Origin: Gammaproteobacteria bacterium HGW-Gammaproteobacteria-1
GTDB taxonomy: Bacteria; Pseudomonadota; Gammaproteobacteria; Thiohalomonadales; Thiohalomonadaceae
Length of the DNA stretch: 64,000 nucleotides
NCBI GenBank assembly: GCA_002840095.1
Contig: PGZL01000011.1
Coordinates: 1-64,000, forward strand
Direction: 5' to 3'
The translations under genes and the position numbers were made by a program. Below the pieces are notes generated by a model, which saw only the letters and a program-made list of their open reading frames with translations, had not been told where the DNA came from and did no database searches. This document shows, piece by piece, positions 9,520 to 64,000 of this stretch (its first letter is position 1; every line of letters starts with the position of its first letter).

Positions 9520-10551
9520 CTACTGTTCGAGCTGGAATCCCTTCTCCCGAAACAGGCGCAGGGCTGCGTCGACGACGGCGGGATCAAATTGAGTGACGCG
9601 TTTCGAGCTAACCTCCTCCAACGCCGCGTCGATGCCGAGTCCGGGACGATAAGGGCGATGCGAGGCCATGGCCTCGATAACATCGGCCACCGCCAGGATG
9701 CGCGCTTCGAGCAGGATTTCATCGCCGTGCAGGCCTTGCGGATAGCCGGAACCATCGAGGCGTTCGTGGTGCTGCTGCACGATTTTGGCGATCGGCCAGG
9801 GAAAGTCTATGCCCTTGAGGATATCGTGGCCCGTGCCAGGGTGATTCTTGATCAACGTATACTCCGGTTTGGTGAGATGGCCGGGCTTGCTGAGAATTTC
9901 AGATGGAATATAGATCTTGCCGACATCGTGTACGACAGCAGCCACGCGCAGTCCTTCGACAACAGGCTCCGGCAGTCCAAGTTCACCGGCAATGGCATTG
10001 GCGATGTGTTCTACGCGCCGCTGATGTCCCGCGGTATAGGGATCGCGCAACTCAAGCATGGCAGCTATGGCGCCGACAGTCTCCAGCAGACTTGCCTTCA
10101 GTCGGGTCTCACTTTCGCGTAGCGAGCGGGTGCGTTCGTCCACCGTCTCTTCCAAGTGGAAGCGCAATTGGTGTAATTCGATATGCGTATGCACCCGCGC
10201 CAACAATTCCTCCCGCTGAAACGGCTTGGTGACATAGTCCACTGCCCCCACATCAAATCCTTTTAGTATTTCCTGGGTTTCCGACAGGGCGCTGACGAAG
10301 ATCACCGGCACGTTGCGCAGTTGCGGTTCCTCCTTCAACAGTCGGCAGACCTCGAATCCGTCCATGTCCGGCATGTTGATGTCGAGCAGAATGAGCTGGG
10401 GCGGTTCGAGCCTGGCGGCGCGCAACGCCAGCGCGCCGCTGATGGCGGAGCGGACCGTATAGCCGGCGCCGTTGAGCAGGTCGGTGAGCAGTCGCAAGGA
10501 TGCCGGCGTATCGTCGACGGCCAGGATATACCCTGTATAAGCTGTGGTCAT
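9520..10551 (-). CDS. Response regulator with HD-GYP domain (RpfG-like c-di-GMP phosphodiesterase)
   Basis: The 343-residue product has an N-terminal receiver (ILAVDDTPAS, phospho-acceptor in LILLDINMPDMDG, conserved K in YVTKPF), a short coiled linker, and an HD-GYP phosphodiesterase domain. The domain shows HDVGKI, H.....TGHDIL, HHERLDGSGYP and the metal-binding ADVIEAM. HD-GYP enzymes hydrolyse cyclic di-GMP, so phosphorylation should change motility, biofilm or polysaccharide output. It starts 19 bp after the stop of the large hybrid kinase on the same strand, so the two probably form one operon and one signalling pathway. Confidence 0.92.
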   Translation of the reverse strand: MTTAYTGYILAVDDTPASLRLLTDLLNGAGYTVRSAISGALALRAARLEPPQLILLDINMPDMDGFEVCRLLKEEPQLRNVPVIFVSALSETQEILKGFDVGAVDYVTKPFQREELLARVHTHIELHQLRFHLEETVDERTRSLRESETRLKASLLETVGAIAAMLELRDPYTAGHQRRVEHIANAIAGELGLPEPVVEGLRVAAVVHDVGKIYIPSEILSKPGHLTKPEYTLIKNHPGTGHDILKGIDFPWPIAKIVQQHHERLDGSGYPQGLHGDEILLEARILAVADVIEAMASHRPYRPGLGIDAALEEVSSKRVTQFDPAVVDAALRLFREKGFQLEQ

Positions 10552-10570
10552 AAAGGCTCTCTGCCAAACG

Positions 10571-13500
10571 TCACGGTGCGTCGAGGGGGCGCGACGTCCC
10601 TGCCACAGTCTGAATCACGTCCAGCACGTGAGGATAATTGAATTCATCGACCAGTTGCCAGAGGGTGCCGGCGAGTTCGGGGTCGGTATCGTGGATACGG
10701 GCGATTGCGGCGTCGATTCGCACCCGATCCAAAGACTCGAGCGCGCCGCGCAGATCCTCGCGCAGCCCCGGCGCCAACGCCGACAGCTGCCCCGCCGACA
10801 GAATCTGCGCCTGGTGTTCGACTGGGGGCGTCGTATCCGTTTGGTAGATAAACTTCAGCCCTAACTGGCGGCCAAGGCTGTCGTAGATTTCGTGAAAGCG
10901 ATACGGCTTGCGCACGTTTTCGTCGATACCGGCGGCACGAAGTTCCGGTTCCTGCTCCTTGAATACCGAAGCCGTAACCGCGACGATTTTTACCCGGTCG
11001 CCGCCGGGCAGGCTGCGGATGCGGCGGGTGGCTTCGATTCCGTCCATGATCGGCATGCGCCGGTCCATCCAAATAAGGTCCGGCTGCCAGGTCTCGAACA
11101 GCGCAACGCATTCCGCGCCGTCATTGGCGATCTTTGTCTCCAGCCCAAGGTCGGTCATCAGCCGGGCGAGCAGAAGCTGGTTGTCGCGCTGGTCTTCGGC
11201 GATGAGGATGCGATAGGCGGGCTGTCCGGGGGCAAGGGCCGCCACCTCGCTGCGCACCTTGCCGTCCAGCCGGTTGATGTCCGTTTCGTCACCAATTTCC
11301 AGGGGCAAATCAACGAGAAACAGCGAGCCCCTGCCGGGTGTGCTGTCCACCGTGATGGTGCCGCCCATCAATTGGACATATTGGCGCACGATGGACAGGC
11401 CCAGGCCGGTGCCGCCGTGGGTCATACCCTCGGTCAGCTGGACGAAAGGCGTGAACAGGTGCTTTTGGTCCGATGCGCTGATCCCTGGGCCGGAATCCTC
11501 GACCTCGATCAGCAGGTGCTGCCGCGTATTGGCGCGGACGCCGAGCCGGACCGTGATACCGCCTTCATCGGTAAACTTAACCGCATTGCCGACCAGGTTG
11601 ATAAGGACCTGGCGCAGGCGCGCCTCGTCGCCCCTGATGTAGCGTGGAAATTCCGATGCCTGATCGAGCAACAGTCGCAGCCCCTTCTGTTGCGCCCGCT
11701 GCCGCATCATGTCGGTCACGTCCCGCACCAGGCCATGCAGATCAAAGGTGGATGATTCCAGCTGCAGTTTGCCGGCCTCGATCTTGGCGATTTCCAGCAC
11801 GTCGTTGATCAGCTTGAGCAGGTGCTCGCCGCTGTTATTGATGATGTCGATGTTCTCCCGCTGTGTGGCATTCAAATCCGATTCCTGACGCAGCATCTGG
11901 GAGAAACCCAGGATGGCGTTGAGCGGCGTGCGCAGTTCGTGACTCATATTGGCGAGGAATGCGCTCTTTGCCTTATTGGCGGCTTCGGCCGCATCGCGGG
12001 CCAGACGCAATTCCTCGGTGCGTTGCGTGATCTCTTCTTCCAGGTGTTCCTTGTGACTGCGCAGTGCTTCCTCCGCCCGGGTACGTTCCGCCAGCAGCAC
12101 CATGCGGTCTAGGGTGACGGCCATGTGGCTGGCCATCGCCGTCAGGTATTCCCGTTCGGCGGGAGTAGGATTGCGCACCTCCTGATCGCCGATGGTGCCG
12201 GTGGCAATGGTGCCCAGGTGCCGGCCGGAGAGGAAGACCGGCACGTTGATCAGCGTCAGCAGTTTCATCTGCTCGACGATGGCCTTGTTGGTGCGAGGGT
12301 CGGTACGGGCGTCTTCGACCACCACGATGTCCTGCGCCGTCGCGATCTCCTCCAGCATCGGGTCTCCGGCGATGTGCAGGGTGGCGGAGAACTTGTCGAT
12401 CAGGTCGTTCAGCGATCCTTCCTTGACCAGCACCTTGAAGCAACTGCGGTCGTCACTCAGCAGATATACCACCAGATAGTGGTAGTCGAGCATGGCTACC
12501 ACTTCGTCTTGTGCCGCGATGATCGCGTCGCCAGGTGATTGCGCCTGTTCCAGGCGGCGAGAGAGGCGCAGTAGGGACTGGGAATATTTTTCACGCAGGC
12601 GCAACTGCAGCTCCGCTTCCTTGAGTGCCGTTATATCGGTGACCATGGCGAGAGCGCCACGATAGTGCCCCTCATCGAAAATGGGCGTGGCGGAAACCAA
12701 TGCCCACATGAGCGTCTGATCGCTCTTGCGTAGGCGGCGTTCGTAGGTCTCGGCGCGGTTCTTCTCGCGGTTGGCCAGCTTTAGCTGGTGATCATTCAGA
12801 TCCTCTTCCAGCATGACGTCGGTGACCAGGCGATCCTGCAGCTGCTCGGGTGTATAGCCGAGCATTTCGCCCAGATGAGCGTTGGCGAAGGTCACCCGGC
12901 CATGCTCATCTACGGCCAGGACGCCCTCGCGGGCAGTATCGACGATGCGGCGATATCGCAACTCGCTGGCGCGCAGGTCACGCAGTATGAGCAGGCTGGT
13001 TAGCCCATCGGTCAGACGTCGGCCAATCTCTTCGAGTAGATGTTCTTCATCCGCCGTCCAGTGGCGTTCGTATGAACACTGCTGAATGCCGAATTCCCAG
13101 GGCTTGGCGACTTTTGGAGTGATGGCGGTCGACATCAACGATTTGATGCCGAAGCGCTCTGCGAGGTCCGTCGGCACGGCGTGATCCATTCCCGCACCGA
13201 ACTTGACGACTCCGGGCGCGTCCAGGAGCAGCCGCATCTTCATGGCTGTTCCGGAGGCCATGGGAATCTCGGCTCCCATGGCCCGAGCCCCGGGGTATTC
13301 CGGCCGGGTCCGCTCCATCGGGACCGACCATGTGGGTGACTCAGGATCGCAAGGGTAGAGCAGGAAAGCGCGATCGCAGTCAAGAATATCCAGTACTTCG
13401 TCGAGCACGCTGGCCGTCATGGCATCCAGATCATTGGTGCCCTGGATAGCACGGTTGACGCGGTCCATATTGGCGAGGAATTGGGCGTGGTGCTGCCGGT

Positions 13501-14929
13501 CCTGCTCGGCCTGTTTAAGCGCGGTAATGTCGCGTCCGATTGCGAGTACGCCGATTATCTCGCCCTGGTCATCGTACTCGGCGGAGAAACGGACGAGATG
13601 ATTGCGCAAGGTGCCGTCGGGATGTGGAACGGTCAGTTCCATATCATCGGCTTTACCGCTTTCCAGCACGCGACGGATGTGTCCTTCGTAATCGGCGCTG
13701 ATCTCACTGCCGCCGTAGCCAAGTTCGGTGGGCGTCCGGCCGAGTATCCTTGTGTGGTCGACGGCCAGCGTCTGCGTGACCCTTGGGTTGTAATAGATGG
13801 TGCGGCACTGCCGATCGTAACGGATGATGTTGTCAGGGGAGTTCTCCGACAGGCTGCGGAATTGCCGTTCACTGGCCGCCAGTGCAGTCGCCGCATGCTT
13901 GCGTTCGGTGATGTCGTGTCCTTCGGGAATAAGTTGAATGATCCGGCCGTCGGAGTCGGTGACCGGCTTGAGCGAGAAATCGACATAACGAATATTGCCG
14001 TTGCTATCCGGGTGCGCGGCCTCGAAGTTGACGACGTGACCGGTCGCCGCCTCACGGATGGCCTCGCGCACCCGCTGCTGCAATTCGGCAGAATGGCTCC
14101 ACCAGGGTGCTTCCCAAAACGGTTTGCCCAGAACCGCAGCCGCGTCGACCCCCGCCAGTTTGAGTGAGGCTGGGTTCGCCTCCAGCAGGGTGCCGTCGGC
14201 CGACAACAGGCCGATGAGTTCGACGCTCTGATTGAAAATTGCATGAAAGCGTTGCTCGCTGGAACGCAGCGCTTCCTCCATCTGCTTGCGTTCGGTGACA
14301 TCGCGGCTGATAGCCAGCGCGCCCGTGACTACTCCATGTTCGTCACGCTCGGCGATTATGCGCAAGGCATGGATGCGCGGACTATCGCGTTTGAGCGGCG
14401 GGACGAACTCGAATTCCAGGTCTTCGCCGGTTGCAAGAACCTTGTCTATGGCCTGGGCATAGGTTTCGTAACTGCCGTCGGCATGAAATTCACGTACGCG
14501 TTTGCCGATGCGGTCTCTGGCGGTTACGCCCAACTGCTGTGCGAGCGTCGGATTGAGATAGGTGACGCGCCCGTCCCGGTCGTAGCGGATGATGTTGTCC
14601 GGCATGCTTTCCGCCAGACTGCGGAATGGCTGGGCGCATTGCTCCTGTCGCCGTTCGGCATCGGTGCGCAGTGCGGCGATGATGCCGACCACCAGCAGGA
14701 CGGATATGGCCAGGGCGACCAATTCGACGAAAAGATCGGGCGATGTGACCGGGCCGGTACCGAACAACGGCATCAGGTTGATGCCGTGATGCAGCGCCAT
14801 CAAGGCGAGCGCCGCGGCGATGAAAATCCAGGCCGGCATCCTGCCTGTCACCTTGATCAGGCGCAGGGCGAAGTAAACGGCCAGCAACTGCAGCAGGAGA
14901 GAGATGATCAGTACTGAAACGCTCAACAT
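10571..14929 (-). CDS. Multi-PAS/GAF membrane hybrid histidine kinase with receiver domain
   Basis: A very long sensor (1452 residues). Two or three hydrophobic helices fill the first ~90 residues. Then come repeated PAS/PAC modules (each with a SFR/QF.SL.ES.PD.IIRYD signature or DITERK junction), a GAF-like domain (DILDCDRAFLLYPCDP), another PAS, a second GAF (LSRRLEQAQSPGDAI on), a coiled coil, HisKA (SHELRTPLNAILGFSQM, His near residue 995), HATPase (GTGLGLSIVRQYVQLM) and a receiver with Asp near residue 1287 (DLIWMDRRMPIMDG). About 90 C-terminal residues look like an HPt fold but lack a clear HPt histidine motif. GGGGAG precedes ATG 14929. It probably passes phosphate to the HD-GYP regulator downstream. 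Confidence 0.9.
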   Translation of the reverse strand: MLSVSVLIISLLLQLLAVYFALRLIKVTGRMPAWIFIAAALALMALHHGINLMPLFGTGPVTSPDLFVELVALAISVLLVVGIIAALRTDAERRQEQCAQPFRSLAESMPDNIIRYDRDGRVTYLNPTLAQQLGVTARDRIGKRVREFHADGSYETYAQAIDKVLATGEDLEFEFVPPLKRDSPRIHALRIIAERDEHGVVTGALAISRDVTERKQMEEALRSSEQRFHAIFNQSVELIGLLSADGTLLEANPASLKLAGVDAAAVLGKPFWEAPWWSHSAELQQRVREAIREAATGHVVNFEAAHPDSNGNIRYVDFSLKPVTDSDGRIIQLIPEGHDITERKHAATALAASERQFRSLSENSPDNIIRYDRQCRTIYYNPRVTQTLAVDHTRILGRTPTELGYGGSEISADYEGHIRRVLESGKADDMELTVPHPDGTLRNHLVRFSAEYDDQGEIIGVLAIGRDITALKQAEQDRQHHAQFLANMDRVNRAIQGTNDLDAMTASVLDEVLDILDCDRAFLLYPCDPESPTWSVPMERTRPEYPGARAMGAEIPMASGTAMKMRLLLDAPGVVKFGAGMDHAVPTDLAERFGIKSLMSTAITPKVAKPWEFGIQQCSYERHWTADEEHLLEEIGRRLTDGLTSLLILRDLRASELRYRRIVDTAREGVLAVDEHGRVTFANAHLGEMLGYTPEQLQDRLVTDVMLEEDLNDHQLKLANREKNRAETYERRLRKSDQTLMWALVSATPIFDEGHYRGALAMVTDITALKEAELQLRLREKYSQSLLRLSRRLEQAQSPGDAIIAAQDEVVAMLDYHYLVVYLLSDDRSCFKVLVKEGSLNDLIDKFSATLHIAGDPMLEEIATAQDIVVVEDARTDPRTNKAIVEQMKLLTLINVPVFLSGRHLGTIATGTIGDQEVRNPTPAEREYLTAMASHMAVTLDRMVLLAERTRAEEALRSHKEHLEEEITQRTEELRLARDAAEAANKAKSAFLANMSHELRTPLNAILGFSQMLRQESDLNATQRENIDIINNSGEHLLKLINDVLEIAKIEAGKLQLESSTFDLHGLVRDVTDMMRQRAQQKGLRLLLDQASEFPRYIRGDEARLRQVLINLVGNAVKFTDEGGITVRLGVRANTRQHLLIEVEDSGPGISASDQKHLFTPFVQLTEGMTHGGTGLGLSIVRQYVQLMGGTITVDSTPGRGSLFLVDLPLEIGDETDINRLDGKVRSEVAALAPGQPAYRILIAEDQRDNQLLLARLMTDLGLETKIANDGAECVALFETWQPDLIWMDRRMPIMDGIEATRRIRSLPGGDRVKIVAVTASVFKEQEPELRAAGIDENVRKPYRFHEIYDSLGRQLGLKFIYQTDTTPPVEHQAQILSAGQLSALAPGLREDLRGALESLDRVRIDAAIARIHDTDPELAGTLWQLVDEFNYPHVLDVIQTVAGTSRPLDAP

Positions 14930-25329: not shown

Positions 25330-25432
25330 CTGCCGCAGAGACGCGGAGGCGCAGAGCGATTTTGGTGCGGGCTGAGAGCCGGGGCACGAATCACGATCTC
25401 TTCATCTCTGTGTCTCTGCGTCTCCGCGGCAG
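25330..25432. repeat. GCAGAGACGC inverted repeat in the soeA-soeB gap
   Basis: Arms of 27 bp (25330-25356 and 25406-25432) built on CTGCCGCAGAGACGCGGAG pair with about four mismatches. The outer end lies 3 bp from the soeA stop. A shorter relative with the same core (TCGCAGAGACGCAGAGG) lies at 33485. Confidence 0.75.
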
Positions 25433-31439: not shown

Positions 31440-31537
31440 CTCTCGCCAAGACGCCAAGATCGCCAAGAAAGGCAAAATCTGACCGCACAGCCCATACGAC
31501 TTGGGTTTTCTTGGCGATCTTGGCGTCTTGGCGAGAG
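31440..31537. repeat. TTGGCG-family palindromic repeat (perfect 31-bp arms)
   Basis: The arms 31440-31470 and 31507-31537 are perfect reverse complements; the core is TTGGCGATCTTGGCGTCTTG on the right arm. The spacer is 36 bp. Other members lie at 60886-61685 and 63398-63640. It occupies the 335-bp gap between the aprBA terminator and the YkgJ-type gene, which otherwise shows nothing. Confidence 0.9.
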
Positions 31538-33484: not shown

Positions 33485-33547
33485 TCGCAGAGACGCAGAG
33501 GATGATTTGTTTTGGCAACAGGAGTCTTTTCCTCCGCGTCTTTGCGA
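33485..33547. repeat. GCAGAGACGC inverted repeat (short member)
   Basis: Arms TCGCAGAGACGCAGAGG and CCTCCGCGTCTTTGCGA pair with two mismatches around about 29 bases. It lies between ppnP and trmO and is related to the repeat at 25330. Confidence 0.75.
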
Positions 33548-59181: not shown

Positions 59182-60849
59182 ATGAAAATACCCGTCAGCG
59201 AATTGATCGTCCGCTATCTGGAACGCCTCGGTGTGCAATACATCTTCGGCATCCCCGGCGCCCACATCCTTCCCGTTTACGACAGCCTGTACGATTCCCC
59301 CATCGAGAGCGTGCTGGTCAAGCACGAACAGGGCGCGGCCTTCATGGCCGGCGGCTATGCCCGCGCCTCGGGCAACATCGGCGCCTGCATCACCACCGCC
59401 GGTCCCGGCGCCACCAACCTGGTCACCGGCATCGCCAACGCCTATGCCGACAAGCTGCCGGTGCTGGTGCTCACCGGCGAGACCTCCACTCACATCTTCG
59501 GCAAGGGCGGCCTGCAGGAAAGCTCGGGCGAGGGCGGCAGCATCGACCAGGTGTCGCTGTTCAAGGGCATCACGCGCTACAACAAAATCGTCGAACGCAC
59601 CGACTACCTGGAAAACGTGCTCAACCAGGCGGCCAAGATCCTGCTCTCCGACCAGCCCGGCCCGGTGCTGCTCAGCTTTCCCTATAACGTGCAGAAGGAG
59701 ATGGTGGACGCCGCCGTCCTCGACAACATCCACAGCTGCCGCCACGCCCGCTCGCAGCGCGACTGCGCCCAGCCGGCCCAGGCCCTGACCGAGCTGATCC
59801 TCGCCGCGCGGCACCCGGTGATCATCGCCGGCTACGGCTGCCTGCGCGCCCATGCGCAGGGTGAGGTGGAACAGCTGTCGGCGCTGCTCAACATCCCCGT
59901 CACCACCAGCCTCAAGGCCAAGGGCGTGATCAGCGAGCAGTCGCCCCTGGCCCTGGGCAGCCTGGGCGTCACCTCCAGCGGTCATGCCTACAAGTACATC
60001 GTCGACAATGCCGACCTGCTCATCTTCCTCGGCACCAGCTTCAACGAGCGCACCAGCTACCTGTGGGATCAGACCCTGCTCAACGGCAAGAAGGTGGTGC
60101 AGGTGGATCTGGACCCGGCGCAGCTGGAGAAGGTGTTTCCCGCCGACCTCGCCATCCACGGCGACATCAAGGTGGTGCTGGACGGCGTGCTGACCCAGCT
60201 CGACGGGCGCGAAGGGGAGGCGGCCAGCTTCGAGCGGCTGCGCGCCGAGATCGAACGCTCCAAGGCCGCGGTCACCAGCGACTACGTCATCTTCCAGTCC
60301 GGCTTCGCCCTGGTGGAACATTTCTACCGCGCACTGGAGCAGAACTTTCCGCGCGGCGCCATGATCTTCGACGACAACATCATCTTCGCGCAGAACTTCC
60401 TTAACGTCGGCAGCGGCAACCGCTACTACCCCAACTCCGGCATCTCCTCCCTCGGCCATGCCATCCCGGCCGCCATCGGCGCGCGCTTCGTCGAACACAA
60501 GCCCACCTTCGCCATCCTCGGCGACGGCGGCTTCCAGATGTGCGCCATGGAGATCATGACTGCGGTGAACTACAACATCCCGCTCAACATCGTGGTGTTC
60601 AACAACGCCACCATGGGACTGATCCGCAAGAACCAGCACCAGCAGTACGGCCGGCGCTTCATCAGCTGCGACTTCGCCAACCCCGACTTCGAACTGCTGG
60701 CCCGCTCCTACGGCATCGGCTACAAGCGGGTGGAGACCAGCGCCGACGTCGACGAACTGTTCGCCGGCCACGACCTGCGCGGCGCGATCAACCTGATCGA
60801 CATCGTCATCGACAAGAATCTGTTTCCCAATTACTCCTCGCGGCGGTAG
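59182..60849 (+). CDS. Thiamine diphosphate-dependent enzyme of the acetolactate synthase family
   Basis: A 555-residue three-domain ThDP enzyme. The catalytic glutamate is in VLVKHEQGAAFMAGGYAR (residue ~50), and the ThDP-magnesium motif runs from GDGGFQM to VVFNN about 27 residues later. Phosphate-binding or FAD-like residues occur in the middle domain. Catabolic or biosynthetic acetolactate synthase, an oxalyl- or sulfo-compound decarboxylase or another carboligase are all possible; there is no small regulatory subunit next to it, so I do not call it IlvB. It is flanked by repeats on both sides. Confidence 0.8.
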   Translation: MKIPVSELIVRYLERLGVQYIFGIPGAHILPVYDSLYDSPIESVLVKHEQGAAFMAGGYARASGNIGACITTAGPGATNLVTGIANAYADKLPVLVLTGETSTHIFGKGGLQESSGEGGSIDQVSLFKGITRYNKIVERTDYLENVLNQAAKILLSDQPGPVLLSFPYNVQKEMVDAAVLDNIHSCRHARSQRDCAQPAQALTELILAARHPVIIAGYGCLRAHAQGEVEQLSALLNIPVTTSLKAKGVISEQSPLALGSLGVTSSGHAYKYIVDNADLLIFLGTSFNERTSYLWDQTLLNGKKVVQVDLDPAQLEKVFPADLAIHGDIKVVLDGVLTQLDGREGEAASFERLRAEIERSKAAVTSDYVIFQSGFALVEHFYRALEQNFPRGAMIFDDNIIFAQNFLNVGSGNRYYPNSGISSLGHAIPAAIGARFVEHKPTFAILGDGGFQMCAMEIMTAVNYNIPLNIVVFNNATMGLIRKNQHQQYGRRFISCDFANPDFELLARSYGIGYKRVETSADVDELFAGHDLRGAINLIDIVIDKNLFPNYSSRR

Positions 60850-60885
60850 CGGCTTTGGGCTGCCTTTCGCTGAAAAGGAAGGTAT

Positions 60886-61235
60886 TCTCGCCAAGGCGCA
60901 AAGAGCGCCAAGAAAGCGATGGTGATTCTTGTTCCTTGGCGGGCGTCGCGGCCTTGGCGAGAGTTATCGGGTCTTTCTGAATAGGACAGGTGATCTCGCC
61001 AAGACGCCAAGAGCGCTAAGAAGGCCCTTGTGACTGCTGTTCCTTGGTGAGCTTTGCGGCCTTGGCGAGAGTTATTGGGTGTTTCTGCACAGGACAGGTG
61101 ATCTCGCCAAGACGCCAAGAGCGCCAAGAAGGCCCTTGTGACTGCTGTTCCTTGGTGAGCTTTGCGGCCTTGGCGAGAGCTATTGGGTCTTCCTGAGCAG
61201 GACAGGTGATCTCGGCAAGGCGCCAAGAGCACCAG
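60886..61235. repeat. Tandem array of the TTGGCG repeat (108-bp unit, three units plus a partial)
   Basis: Units start at 60886, 60994, 61102 and 61210, spaced exactly 108 bp. Each full unit has a left arm (TCTCGCCAAGACGCCAAGAG), a spacer and a right arm (GCGGCCTTGGCGAGAG). Units 2 and 3 are nearly identical. The fourth unit has only its left arm here; its right arm is at 61654, beyond the GxxExxY gene. The array fills the 408-bp gap after the ThDP gene. On the minus strand it yields a spurious 36-residue protein repeat. Confidence 0.92.
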
Positions 61236-61257
61236 GACAACCAAAGGATTGGTAACG

Positions 61258-61650
61258 ATGACAGAGGACGAAATTGGGCGAGCGATTGTTGACGTCGCAG
61301 TACAGATTCATCGTGAGATTGGGCCAGGCCTGCTGGAATCCGTATATGAGGTGCTTCTGGCCCACGAACTGCGACAACGCGGCTTGAGGGTGGAAAGACA
61401 GGTACCTATTCCAGTCATGTATAAAGGCCTGACTTTCGACGAGGGCTTTAGGGCAGATATCGTTGTTGAATCAAGAGTCATCATTGAGCTCAAATGTGTC
61501 GAGAAACTGCACAATGCACACAAGAAGCAGCTACTCACATACTTGCGTCTTGCTGACAAAAGGCTGGGATATCTTCTCAACTTCAGTGAGGCACTCATGA
61601 AGCAGGGAATCACCCGTACCGTCAATCGTTTCAACGAAGCTGAGTCTTAG
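61258..61650 (+). CDS. GxxExxY protein (PD-(D/E)XK nuclease-like)
   Basis: A 130-residue protein with the name-giving motif GPGLLESVY near residue 22 and IVDVAVQIHREIG before it. It continues VPIPVMYKGL, GFRADIVVE (Asp) and VIIELKCV (Glu-x-Lys), which together make a PD-(D/E)XK nuclease active-site pattern. The biochemical role of the family is not established to my knowledge. It lies between the left arm (61210) and right arm (61654) of a TTGGCG repeat unit. ATG 61258 is chosen; AAAGG lies upstream. Confidence 0.88.
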   Translation: MTEDEIGRAIVDVAVQIHREIGPGLLESVYEVLLAHELRQRGLRVERQVPIPVMYKGLTFDEGFRADIVVESRVIIELKCVEKLHNAHKKQLLTYLRLADKRLGYLLNFSEALMKQGITRTVNRFNEAES

Positions 61651-61653
61651 CTT

Positions 61654-61685
61654 ACTTGGCGATCTTGGCGTCTTGGCGAGAGAAA
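61654..61685. repeat. Right arm of the TTGGCG repeat after the GxxExxY gene
   Basis: ACTTGGCGATCTTGGCGTCT followed by TGGCGAGAG, the same right arm as at 31507-31537. It begins 3 bp after the stop of the GxxExxY gene and pairs with the left arm at 61210, with about five mismatches. Confidence 0.85.
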
Positions 61686-61725
61686 ACTGCCTTTCAAAGT
61701 TCATGAAGCTGAGAACGACTCATCA

Positions 61726-63396
61726 ATGACCGACCCGACACCCCACGACATCGTCATCGTCGTCCCGGTCGCTGACCGGCCGCGCCACCTGTCCGAGTGC
61801 CTGAACACTCTGCTGGAGCTCATCCGGCGCTATCCCTACGCCGGCAAGGTGTCGGTGCTGGTGGCCGAGGACAGCCTCGACACCGACAGCATCGACCGCC
61901 ATCGCGCCATCACCGCATCCGTCACGCAGCAGGGCATCGCGACGCACCACCTGGGACCGGACGAACAAAAGGCGCTGGTCGATGCCCTGCCGCAAGAGGC
62001 GCGCGCTGCACTGGCCGACATCATCGGCGACGGTACGACCTATGCCCACAAAGGCGCCTCCATCACCCGCAACATCGCCTACCTTTGGCTGAACCGCCTC
62101 CAGGCCGATGGCCGCAAGCGCCTGTTCTGGTTCATCGACAGCGACCAGGAATTCCGCGTCAACGTCGCCGCAGACAGCGGCGAGCAGCAGGTCTATGCCA
62201 TCGACTACTGCAACGCCCTCGACCGCATCTTCAACGAAACCCCGGCGAAGATACTTACCGGCAAGGTGGTCGGCGATCCGCCGGTGTCGCCCGCCGTCAT
62301 GGCCGGCAACTTCCTCGATGACGTCGCCGCCTTCCTCACCGACATGGCGCAATGCGCGCCGCAGCAGCCCTGCTCCTTCCACGGCGCCGGCCGCCACGCC
62401 GACGATGCCGCCTATCACGACATGGCCGGGCTGTTCGGCTTCAAGGCCGCCGAAGTCTTCCGTTATCAATGCACGCTGGACGGTGCCCACGACCACGCCG
62501 CCTGTTACACCGACTTCGCGAGGAAGCTGGCGCATTTCTTCGACGGCGAACACCCCACCCGCCGCAGCGTATACGAAGACGCCGATCTGATGGCCACGGT
62601 GAAACCCGCCCGCACCATCTACACCGGCAACTACGTTTTCACCGCGGACTGCCTCGACTGGTTCATCCCCTTCGCCGCCCTCAGGCTGCGCATGGCCGGT
62701 CCCACCCTGGGCCGCATCATCAAGGCCGAGCTGGGAGAGCAGTTCGTCTCAGCCAATTTGCCCATGCTGCACAAGCGCACCGTGGAAGAACTCGGCCAGT
62801 CGGAATTCCGTCCCGGCATCGAGCGTGCTGCGGCGAGGGTCGACCTCTCCGGCGAATTCGAACGGCAATACTTCGGCGACGTCATGCTGTTCAGCATGCA
62901 GCGCCTGACCGTAGGGTGCGCACCGCGCACCAACACCCTCGACACCGCCACCGTGGGGTGCGCACCGCGCACCAACACCCCCGACACCGCCACTGTAGGG
63001 TGCGCACCGCGCACCGAACCCCAAACGGTGCGCAATGCACACCCTACGCGCGACGAAATCGGCACCCTCGTCGCCGACGTCGAAACCGGGATGCACGAAA
63101 TGTACGCCACCAAGCACCGCGAGATCGCCGACAAGATCGACCGGCTACGCGCGCTGTTCGATGCCCCGGAACACTGGTGGCGGCAGGATGCCGGCCTGGA
63201 CCAGGCGCTTGCCCTGTTCAAAAACTTCATCGACAACATGCAAAACAACTTCGGCGATGACTCCCGTGCCTGGCAGATCGTAAACGGCGCGGCCCATCGC
63301 GCACGGCGTCTGTCCGCCATCGCAGAAGCCATCAGCCGTTACCGCGAAGACCGGGATACATGGCACAGTGCGCTTACTAAAGTTAAAACCGAGTGA
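61726..63396 (+). CDS. Glycosyltransferase-like protein with an in-frame repeat insertion
   Basis: A 556-residue protein. The N-terminal half looks like a GT-A fold: DIVIVVPVADRPRHLSECLN, VSVLVAEDSLDTDS and FWFIDSDQEFRV, which carries a DxD-like metal site. I do not recognise the exact family. Between residues about 395 and 442 lies a run of TVGCAPRTNT units encoded by an intergenic-type repeat (62908-63050). The C terminus is helical (MHEMYATKHREIADKIDRLR). It may act on surface polysaccharide, given the sulfotransferase next to it. Whether the insertion leaves it active is not known. Confidence 0.7.
   Translation: MTDPTPHDIVIVVPVADRPRHLSECLNTLLELIRRYPYAGKVSVLVAEDSLDTDSIDRHRAITASVTQQGIATHHLGPDEQKALVDALPQEARAALADIIGDGTTYAHKGASITRNIAYLWLNRLQADGRKRLFWFIDSDQEFRVNVAADSGEQQVYAIDYCNALDRIFNETPAKILTGKVVGDPPVSPAVMAGNFLDDVAAFLTDMAQCAPQQPCSFHGAGRHADDAAYHDMAGLFGFKAAEVFRYQCTLDGAHDHAACYTDFARKLAHFFDGEHPTRRSVYEDADLMATVKPARTIYTGNYVFTADCLDWFIPFAALRLRMAGPTLGRIIKAELGEQFVSANLPMLHKRTVEELGQSEFRPGIERAAARVDLSGEFERQYFGDVMLFSMQRLTVGCAPRTNTLDTATVGCAPRTNTPDTATVGCAPRTEPQTVRNAHPTRDEIGTLVADVETGMHEMYATKHREIADKIDRLRALFDAPEHWWRQDAGLDQALALFKNFIDNMQNNFGDDSRAWQIVNGAAHRARRLSAIAEAISRYREDRDTWHSALTKVKTE
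62908..63050 (+). repeat. 42-bp in-frame tandem repeat of the GTAGGGTGCGC family
   Basis: Two full 42-bp units (62908 and 62950) and a third partial unit (62992) each begin ACCGTAGGGTGCGCACCGCG or a one- or two-base variant. The third ends with an inverted copy (GGTGCGCAATGCACACCCTAC). The length is a multiple of three, so the host reading frame stays open. Confidence 0.88.
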
Positions 63397-63680
63397 TCTC
63401 GCCAAGGCGCCAAGATCGCCAAGGTAAAACAAAGGAAATGCAGTTCGTGTTTTCTTGGCGCGCTTGGCGTCTTGGCGAGAGCAACTTAGGGGTTATAAAT
63501 TGAACGTCTTCATCCTTAACACAGAACATTGGGGCTAATTAGGAGAAAACAGGTGATCTCGCCAAGGCGCCAAGATCGCCAAGGTAAAACAAAGGAAATG
63601 CAGTTCGTGTTTTCTTGGCGTGCTTGGCGTCTTGGCGAGAGCAACTTAGGGGTTATAAATTGAACGTCTTCATCCTAAAC
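63393..63680 (+). repeat. 160-bp-period duplication of a TTGGCG repeat plus a gene start
   Basis: Segments 63393-63520 and 63553-63680 are almost identical over 128 bp. Each has the TTGGCG repeat (arms around 63398-63478 and 63558-63638), a TTAGGGG ribosome binding site and the start TTGAACGTCTTCATCCT. The first copy runs into a stop after 12 codons (63500-63538); the second is the true start of the next gene. Confidence 0.92.
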
Positions 63681-64000
63681 ACCGGACGCTGCGGCTCGAC
63701 CACCTTCATCGAGGCCTGCCGCCACATCACCAACTACACCGCCGGCCACGAAACCCGTGTCCAGCTTTTAGGAGCTGACCGTCTCGCCTATCCGTCCAAT
63801 CACATCGAAGCCGACAACCGCCTCTCCTGGATGCTCGGTCGCCTTGATGCCGCCTACGGCGACAACGCCTGGTACGTCCACCTTACCCGCAACCGCGCCC
63901 AGGTCGCCGCCAGCTTCGCCCGCCGCACCGACTTCGGCATCATGAAGGCCTACCGTGAAGGGATACTGCTGCACGAAGGGCAAGGGCAGGCCTCCGCCGA
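63660..64000 (+). CDS. Sulfotransferase-like protein, N-terminal part (runs off the window edge)
   Basis: An open frame of 113 codons without a stop before the window ends. It begins with TTG after a TTAGGGG site and reads MNVFILNTGRCGSTTFIEAC, where NTGRCGSTTF is a PAPS-binding loop of the sulfotransferase superfamily. WYVHLTRNRAQVAASFARR is a likely 3'-phosphate region. It would add a fourth sulfotransferase to the neighbourhood of the capsule locus. The start codon and ribosome binding site both lie within a duplicated repeat. Confidence 0.8.
   Translation, partial: MNVFILNTGRCGSTTFIEACRHITNYTAGHETRVQLLGADRLAYPSNHIEADNRLSWMLGRLDAAYGDNAWYVHLTRNRAQVAASFARRTDFGIMKAYREGILLHEGQGQASA

Follow-up and report, generated by a model that had tools for sequence, protein, structure and literature searches.

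How does a nuclease gene come to lie between the arms of a short palindrome that belongs to a family of such repeats? The question is raised by a stretch of 64,000 nucleotides from Gammaproteobacteria bacterium HGW-Gammaproteobacteria-1 (contig PGZL01000011.1, positions 1 to 64,000), which was analysed as a whole and is called the window here. The genome to which it belongs is referred to as G000; other genomes and loci carry G and L numbers where they have to be told apart. The original prediction had placed seven units with TTGGCG arms in the window, six with short non-coding spacers and a seventh in which the spacer is a complete gene for a PD-(D/E)XK-like GxxExxY protein. All seven units were found at the expected places. 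The features of the region are as follows.

25334..25428, no strand: hairpin of the sister arm type CGCAGAG; site empty in G017, CGCAAAG-type hairpin at the site in G015
31441..31536, no strand: gene-less hairpin, DNA fold z −11.8; site empty in G015, same arm type with a different loop in G014
33486..33546, no strand: short hairpin of arm type CGCAGAG
60850..61725, no strand: inserted island of three hairpins and the gene unit, between a TPP-enzyme gene and the next gene; in G014, not in G015, G016 or G017
60886..60962, no strand: gene-less hairpin, tandem unit 1
60994..61070, no strand: gene-less hairpin, tandem unit 2
61102..61178, no strand: gene-less hairpin, tandem unit 3, DNA fold z −3.8
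61210..61236, plus strand: left arm of the unit that bears the gene, made of three degenerate heptads
61258..61650, plus strand: GxxExxY protein gene, 130 aa, PD-(D/E)XK nuclease family PDDEXK_3, from profile matches
61655..61681, minus strand: right arm of the unit that bears the gene, made of three CTTGGCG heptads, 96% complementary to the left arms of the units at 63397 and 63557
63397..63480, no strand: gene-less hairpin, first copy of a duplication spaced by 160 bp, DNA fold z −8.3
63557..63640, no strand: gene-less hairpin, second copy of that duplication

The gene in the seventh unit is intact and complete, as predicted. Its product matched TIGR04256 (GxxExxY) over the full profile with an E-value of 2.7e-42 (143.8 bits, cut-off 35) and PF13366 (PDDEXK_3) with an E-value of 8.9e-42. 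It is thus a full-length member of a family whose library entries give neither a function nor an association with repeats. The start is likely the ATG at 61258 rather than the alternative TTG at 61249. The left arm shares 22 of 27 bases with the right arm and is therefore degenerate; the top-scoring partner of the right arm lay outside the unit, in the left arm of the gene-less hairpin at 61102. In the three tandem hairpins upstream of the gene, the right arms have diverged. The spacers of the six gene-less units are short, as had been claimed, but measure 22 to 42 bp between heptad cores and not 26 to 45 bp. At several loci (L041, L045 and others) the left arm often stops at or near the start codon and gives an AAGGA-like stretch, so that it may double as a ribosome-binding region and allow autoregulation.

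Three gene-less hairpins of the window fold as single-stranded DNA (z −8.3, −11.8 and −3.8). A known RNA family was rejected, since an Rfam search of 60800-63700 up to an E-value of 1 returned two matches (0.23 and 0.33) that lay far under the gathering scores. Nearby, inside the gene at 61726-63396, there are three 42-bp direct repeats with GTAGGGTGCGCACC palindromes (62908-63048). Between the anchors of these repeats G014 has 44 bp and the window about 150, and we ask whether they could be another mobile palindrome family inside coding sequence.

The arms are abundant in the genome. Allowing up to 2 mismatches, the arm CTTGGCGTCTTGGCG had 106 + 105 = 211 matches in the 4.23-Mb genome, compared with 12 + 8 = 20 for the reversed control. 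Among 100 exact CTTGGCGTCTTGGCG places listed there were 30 pairs of inward-facing neighbours. The spacing was 53 to 156 bp in 27 pairs; one of the remaining three spans 559 bp over the GxxExxY gene and the other two exceed 20 kb. G000 carries three GxxExxY genes. Their inverted arms are of three different types, one per gene (CGCCAAG, CGCAAAG and ACAAGAT), and all three types are multi-copy: 211 matches for CTTGGCG, 142 for CTYTGCG and 93 for ATCYTGT, with 20, 0 and 4, respectively, for the reversed controls.

An arm consists of about three heptads with linkers of 1 to 3 bp, here CGCCAAG-A-CGCCAAG-NN-CGCCAAG. The general form of the heptad is C-R-C-N-R-A-G, with variants, and it differs between loci (CGCAAAG, CGCAGAG, CACGAAG, CACAGAG, CGCAAAT, CACGGGG, ACAAGAT and others). 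The layout, two inverted arms enclosing something, stays constant despite these changes. In 48 hairpins from several genomes the loops were 13 to 157 bp long within a search window of 10 to 160 bp, and in all searches loops were sought between 10 and 160-260 bp. Extra pairing outside the arms or at the ends of the loops was not evident, a locus's own sides pairing barely better than mispaired ones.

The original prediction described an autonomous element and its non-autonomous offspring. It does not hold literally, because the gene-less units have loops without relation to the gene unit or, for the most part, to one another, and because copies with the gene occur mostly once per arm type. Among the loops of 19 hairpins of G000, 8 of 171 pairs were alike, with about 8 expected by chance, and four of these are clear recent copies. 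A loop resembled the interior of the gene unit more than all 20 shuffles did in 1 of the 19 hairpins, again about the number expected by chance. At the site in G014 that is orthologous to 31441-31536, the left arm is identical at 26 of 27 positions and the loop is different. Gene-less hairpins as deletion offspring of the gene unit were thereby ruled out.

Other arrangements were also seen. At L058, L083 and L097 the gene sits between two complete small hairpins, not within one. At the trpE-trpG junction of G009 (L175), a second palindrome, GTAGGATGGGCAAAG...CTTTGCCCATCCTAC, lies in the loop of the heptad hairpin, giving nested repeats. G015 has a gene for a 412-aa transposase, presumably of the ISL3 kind by its look, inside a CGCAAAT-type hairpin (L299, about 10400-12020), with the 8-bp direct repeat ATTTGCGT on both sides; hairpins thus serve as IS targets.

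The pairing of gene and arms is general. We scored the inverted repeats formed between the left and right flanks of GxxExxY genes. With 150-bp flanks, a score of at least 16 was reached at 33 of 47 loci of the class sample (mispaired flanks, 164 of 2162), at 16 of 21 loci of the family (48 of 420) and at 50 of 73 loci from many phyla (670 of 5256). Dinucleotide-shuffled right flanks reached 16 once in 730 cases. The class set derives from 56 matches listed in 36 genomes, three of them G000's own; of the others 48 were taken, four fragments or edge copies being left out, and 47 were used. The family set comprises 24 loci, of which 22 were scored with 200-bp flanks and 21 with 150-bp flanks. At the longer length 19 of the 22 reached 16, and mispaired pairs sometimes scored equally high because arms are shared between loci. 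The many-phyla loci are the best 80 of at least 586 confirmed ones, minus 7 dropped for short flanks, and are therefore biased to proteins near that of the window. The loci with a score below 16 (14 of 47 in the class set and 23 of 73 in the many-phyla set) include some fragments.

Other genes lacked this arrangement. The arm motif was present on both flanks of 53 of 73 GxxExxY genes, compared with 8 of 200 neighbouring ORFs, and the nearest arms faced inward at 32 of these 53 genes and at none of the 8 ORFs; the other orientations (21 of 53) include loci with the gene between complete hairpins. In 19 genomes bearing both arms and gene, 23 of 31 GxxExxY genes scored at least 16, whereas none of 27 PIN-domain genes did, these being 30 of the matches listed, from 13 of the 19 genomes, minus 3 at contig edges. 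The enrichment of arms around GxxExxY genes that the original prediction proposed as a check was thus found, far above all four kinds of control.

Loci with arms (score of at least 14) span 14 named phyla. Eight plasmid records carry a GxxExxY gene, and 4 of the 7 that were compared scored at least 20. A search of a phage collection gave no match to the gene, and a phage origin was rejected on that ground. Both neighbours were co-directional with the gene at 64 of the 109 loci with usable neighbours (of 151); on a Sphingomonas plasmid these neighbours are fabD and fabG.

We searched 232 genomes of the class with a three-heptad pattern, allowing at most one mismatch, and called a genome arm-rich if it had at least 10 matches, a cut-off chosen after inspection of the table, with control matches of 4 or fewer in every genome. 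A GxxExxY gene was present in 19 of 27 arm-rich genomes and in 17 of 205 others (odds ratio 26, p 3e-12). Repeats equally common in genomes without the gene, which would have spoken against the original prediction, were therefore not what we found, the exceptions being eight arm-rich genomes (G012, G015, G070, G090, G116, G132, G133 and G138) with no GxxExxY or PF13366 match above the cut-off. Weak sub-threshold PF13366 matches occur in G012 and G138, and 3 of the 8 genomes are on one contig. These eight indicate that arms can persist, and perhaps spread, without the gene. Conversely, 17 of the 36 gene-bearing genomes are arm-poor by the pattern used.

G014, of the same genus, has 211 matches to CTYTGCG arms, among those listed mostly CTCTGCG, and its GxxExxY genes include two with CGCAGAG arms. 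ATCYTGT matches number 93 in G000, which has a gene with such arms, compared with 17, 16, 5 and 35 in G014 to G017, where a gene with ATCYTGT-type arms was not found. The 35 matches in G017 (control, 2) speak for arms without the gene.

Empty sites in relatives, another check proposed at the outset, were found both where the window has the island with the gene and at sites of hairpins. The island at 60850-61725 is present in G014 and absent from G015, G016 and G017, in which the aligned host genes are only 15 to 20 unaligned bases apart. In the family, seven of 18 trpG loci adjoin trpE. At this junction, G000 and G014 have gene-bearing units that differ in arm type, G009 has a gene-less hairpin, and G002, G005, G015 and G017 have no insert (19 to 22 bp). 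The junction at 63400 has CGCCAAG hairpins in the window. In G016 the hairpin there is of the CACGGGG type, and G014, G015 and G017 have none with heptads. In G017, the junction that is orthologous to that of the 31441 hairpin (L303, about 13510-13690) holds an unrelated palindrome, GGGGCGAATCGTATTCGCG..., so that the same junction accepts several repeat families. Comparison of filled and empty sites at four junctions gave no consistent target-site duplication, and among the compared sites we found no two hairpins that differ solely in whether the gene fills the loop.

We then asked whether the type of arm follows the protein. Arm similarity correlated with protein identity (rho 0.44, n = 55, and 0.37, n = 57; 0 of 500 permutations each) among loci scoring at least 14. 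The correlation remained when only pairs between phyla were used (rho 0.38, 0 of 1000 permutations) and was reached by none of 1000 shuffles of arms within phyla. On a protein tree of 88 rows the heptad label changed 38 times, compared with 47 in the lowest of 200 shuffles, which links heptad type to the protein tree, but with turnover. A comparison on the protein tree resolved no residues that would set arm specificity, there being too few independent pairs.

Paralogues were no more alike in their arms within a genome (mean similarity 0.39) than across genomes (0.40). Only 1 of 24 same-genome paralogue pairs from 13 genomes had an arm similarity of at least 0.7, with three more at 0.64 to 0.65. 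Paralogues in one genome thus mostly have different arms and are not fresh copies of one transposon. In 40 of 48 hairpins the gene-less arms were nearer to gene arms within the same genome than to those of other genomes (mean 0.69 versus 0.51). Most of these hairpins come from G000 and G014, which contribute 28 of 49 in this comparison and are favoured by it because the best of several genes was taken, and one 'gene arm' of G000 is the left arm of the adjoining tandem unit. No match between gene-less and gene arms was seen in G113, G194, G227 and G235. Taken together, the co-variation shows joint inheritance of arms and protein, and from it we infer that the protein may recognise its arms.

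What kind of enzyme is encoded? In alignments of 15 and 122 proteins the invariant or near-invariant residues are E27 (of GxxExxY), D67, E77-x-K79 and Q91-x3-Y95, and no cysteine is among these columns. The D-x9-E-x-K and Q-x3-Y motifs are presumably those of Cas4, RecB-type and Hjc nucleases. Cas4 has conserved cysteines of an Fe-S cluster, and columns of this kind are absent here. An AF2 model (pLDDT 94.2, pTM 0.88) predicts a restriction-endonuclease-like fold. Foldseek gave no match to the model at E ≤ 0.001 (best 4.2e-3). In a second structure comparison Cas4 SSO0001 came out on top of the folds listed (Z 9.1, rmsd 5.0 over 104 residues), followed by a restriction-like protein (Z 8.2), and, at the middling values below 8, Wolbachia CinB domains (7.4), Hjc (6.7) and AddAB/AdnAB (5.8 to 6.3); the likeness to an Hjc-type resolvase is in fold only.

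By sequence, Cas4 models matched at E-values of 0.00095 to 0.045. We rejected a known defence gene (PADLOC gave only weak matches to Cas4 and similar models, and the PHROG matches were a CRISPR-associated one at E 0.0002 and a RusA-like one at E 0.07) and, by sequence, a relative of solved structure (a single match, E 0.098). The gene is under purifying selection: between the G000 and G014 orthologues dN/dS was 0.017/0.24 = 0.07, which indicates that its function is kept.

The closest known parallel is the REPIN/RAYT system, as described in PMC3116915 and PMC2817692. There, abundant extragenic inverted doublets with spacers form hairpins, the enzyme gene lies between two inverted repeats, enzyme and repeats co-vary, repeat abundance goes with presence of the enzyme, and RAYTs are proposed to cut the structure and let it be copied, by other chemistry. 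The GxxExxY system also has high-copy inverted palindromic doublets with spacers. Most of its loci (33 of 47 and 50 of 73) have the gene flanked by two inverted copies, the enzyme co-varies with the repeats, and its presence follows their abundance (19 of 27 versus 17 of 205), with the 8 exceptions. An arm type mostly has a single copy with the gene, as in RAYT/REPIN and unlike a transposon with MITEs. The differences are that the arms are tandem heptads, that 14 named phyla were seen here, and that the RAYT enzyme is an HUH (Y1) tyrosine transposase, whereas GxxExxY proteins are PD-(D/E)XK in family and predicted fold. Since the class of enzyme is the defining feature of REPIN/RAYT, the GxxExxY system is not a RAYT but would work like one. 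A RAYT/REP-like layout with a different enzyme class, as originally predicted, is thus supported by pairing and co-occurrence; the nuclease may also move the repeats.

MITEs and their parent transposons are alike in that short non-coding elements with inverted ends have a gene-bearing relative in the genome. They differ in that the hairpin loops here are not remnants of the gene unit, no consistent target-site duplication was seen at the four junctions compared, and gene-bearing copies are mostly single and divergent. In Geobacter metallireducens, the accessible text of PMC2700814 describes many copies of the tandem repeats GTTGCTYN (x4) and TCTCCGTS[Y] (x3), mostly in opposite-strand pairs at variable distance, as possible IHF/HU sites; TCTCCGTS is close to our CACGGAG arm type, and that text links no nuclease gene to the pairs. 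Among the best-ranked literature matches, mostly open-access papers, none tied such repeats to a nuclease, and the link was not found in the accessible parts of PMC2996986, PMC3543383, PMC2923632 and PMC3733652.

The pairing, the arm-protein co-variation, the co-occurrence of gene and arms, the hairpin-forming potential, the empty sites and the purifying selection on the gene are established directly. The recurrence of the nuclease family with matching repeats suggests an unrecognised repeat-spreading system that resembles REP/RAYT but is unrelated to it. We consider it probable, with some reserve, that gene and arms form one unit of a widespread, REPIN/RAYT-like two-part system, composed of a small PD-(D/E)XK nuclease and its cognate palindrome population. 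Two inverted arms enclose a variable loop or, usually once per arm type, the nuclease gene. The nuclease would bind the tandem heptads of its own arm type. Once the palindrome has been extruded or has become single-stranded, as at replication, the enzyme would cut or nick the resulting hairpin or cruciform. Host repair or recombination of the cut end would then copy the segment between and including the arms into other intergenic places. Persistence of the gene would come about because it maintains its own arm population and travels between genomes inside arms. For a nuclease tied to hairpin- or cruciform-forming palindromes, the simplest role may be to cut the structure, with repair copying it.

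Several observations weigh against this explanation: the co-variation can come from joint inheritance without recognition, 8 of 27 arm-rich genomes have no gene above the cut-off, the pattern used finds few arms in 17 of 36 genomes with the gene, the loci under score 16 amount to 14 of 47 and 23 of 73, no consistent target-site duplication was seen at the four junctions, and gene-less and gene arms are mismatched in the four genomes named above. The main rival draws on some of the same facts. Here the hairpins spread by other means and are landing sites for a homing parasite, the nuclease cutting hairpins of its own type so that the gene is copied into the loop. Mostly single gene-bearing copies beside many gene-less hairpins would fit this, as would arm-rich genomes without the gene and the trpE-trpG junction with its gene-less hairpin, its gene units of two arm types and its four empty counterparts, a site comparison that is compatible with a homing endonuclease but not decisive. 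Homing by itself leaves unexplained both the association of gene presence with arm abundance and the own-genome match of gene-less and gene arms, and the otherwise identical filled and unfilled hairpins were not found; we regard it as rather unlikely.

Clearly less probable is a host function, in which nucleoid or regulatory proteins bind to the paired sites, or the sites work as RNA hairpins, with the nuclease processing or regulating them or autoregulating through the arm next to its start codon. The IHF/HU proposal for similar paired sites in Geobacter (PMC2700814, accessible text), the left arms that often finish at or near the start codon and the co-directional neighbours at 64 of 109 loci are in keeping with such a function, but presence and absence in related genomes, the occurrence of several arm families at one junction and co-variation between phyla all better fit a mobile system. 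It is more doubtful still that a RAYT/REP or another transposase system owns the arms, with GxxExxY as a frequent passenger: the REPIN-like anatomy of inverted doublets with variable loops and the arm-rich genomes lacking GxxExxY would agree with this, whereas a passenger should not have an arm type that tracks its own protein across phyla, nor should it alone provide gene-sized content in the 30 listed inward exact-arm pairs of G000 (two spans exceed 20 kb). The alternative named in the original prediction, chance insertion of the gene in repeat-rich DNA, has a negligible likelihood and was dismissed; the genome is indeed repeat-rich, but the strong enrichment over mispaired and shuffled flanks, neighbouring ORFs and PIN genes (0 of 27) argues against it.

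The two-part nuclease and palindrome system thus remains our preferred reading. In its fullest form, GxxExxY proteins would be the founding enzymes of another class of systems that spread repeats in bacteria, independent of RAYTs and found in at least 14 phyla. Each nuclease would read its own heptad code, with orthogonal pairs coexisting (three in G000), and would seed large populations of intergenic hairpins by a PD-(D/E)XK cut-and-repair route that is not known from any repeat family. We propose this form tentatively and lean slightly against it. Since there are many arm types with matching proteins, recognition is directly testable by swaps of enzymes and arms. If true, the system would give a role to a large protein family that is annotated but functionless, would explain a common class of bacterial intergenic hairpins and would be an independent evolutionary counterpart to RAYT/REPIN.
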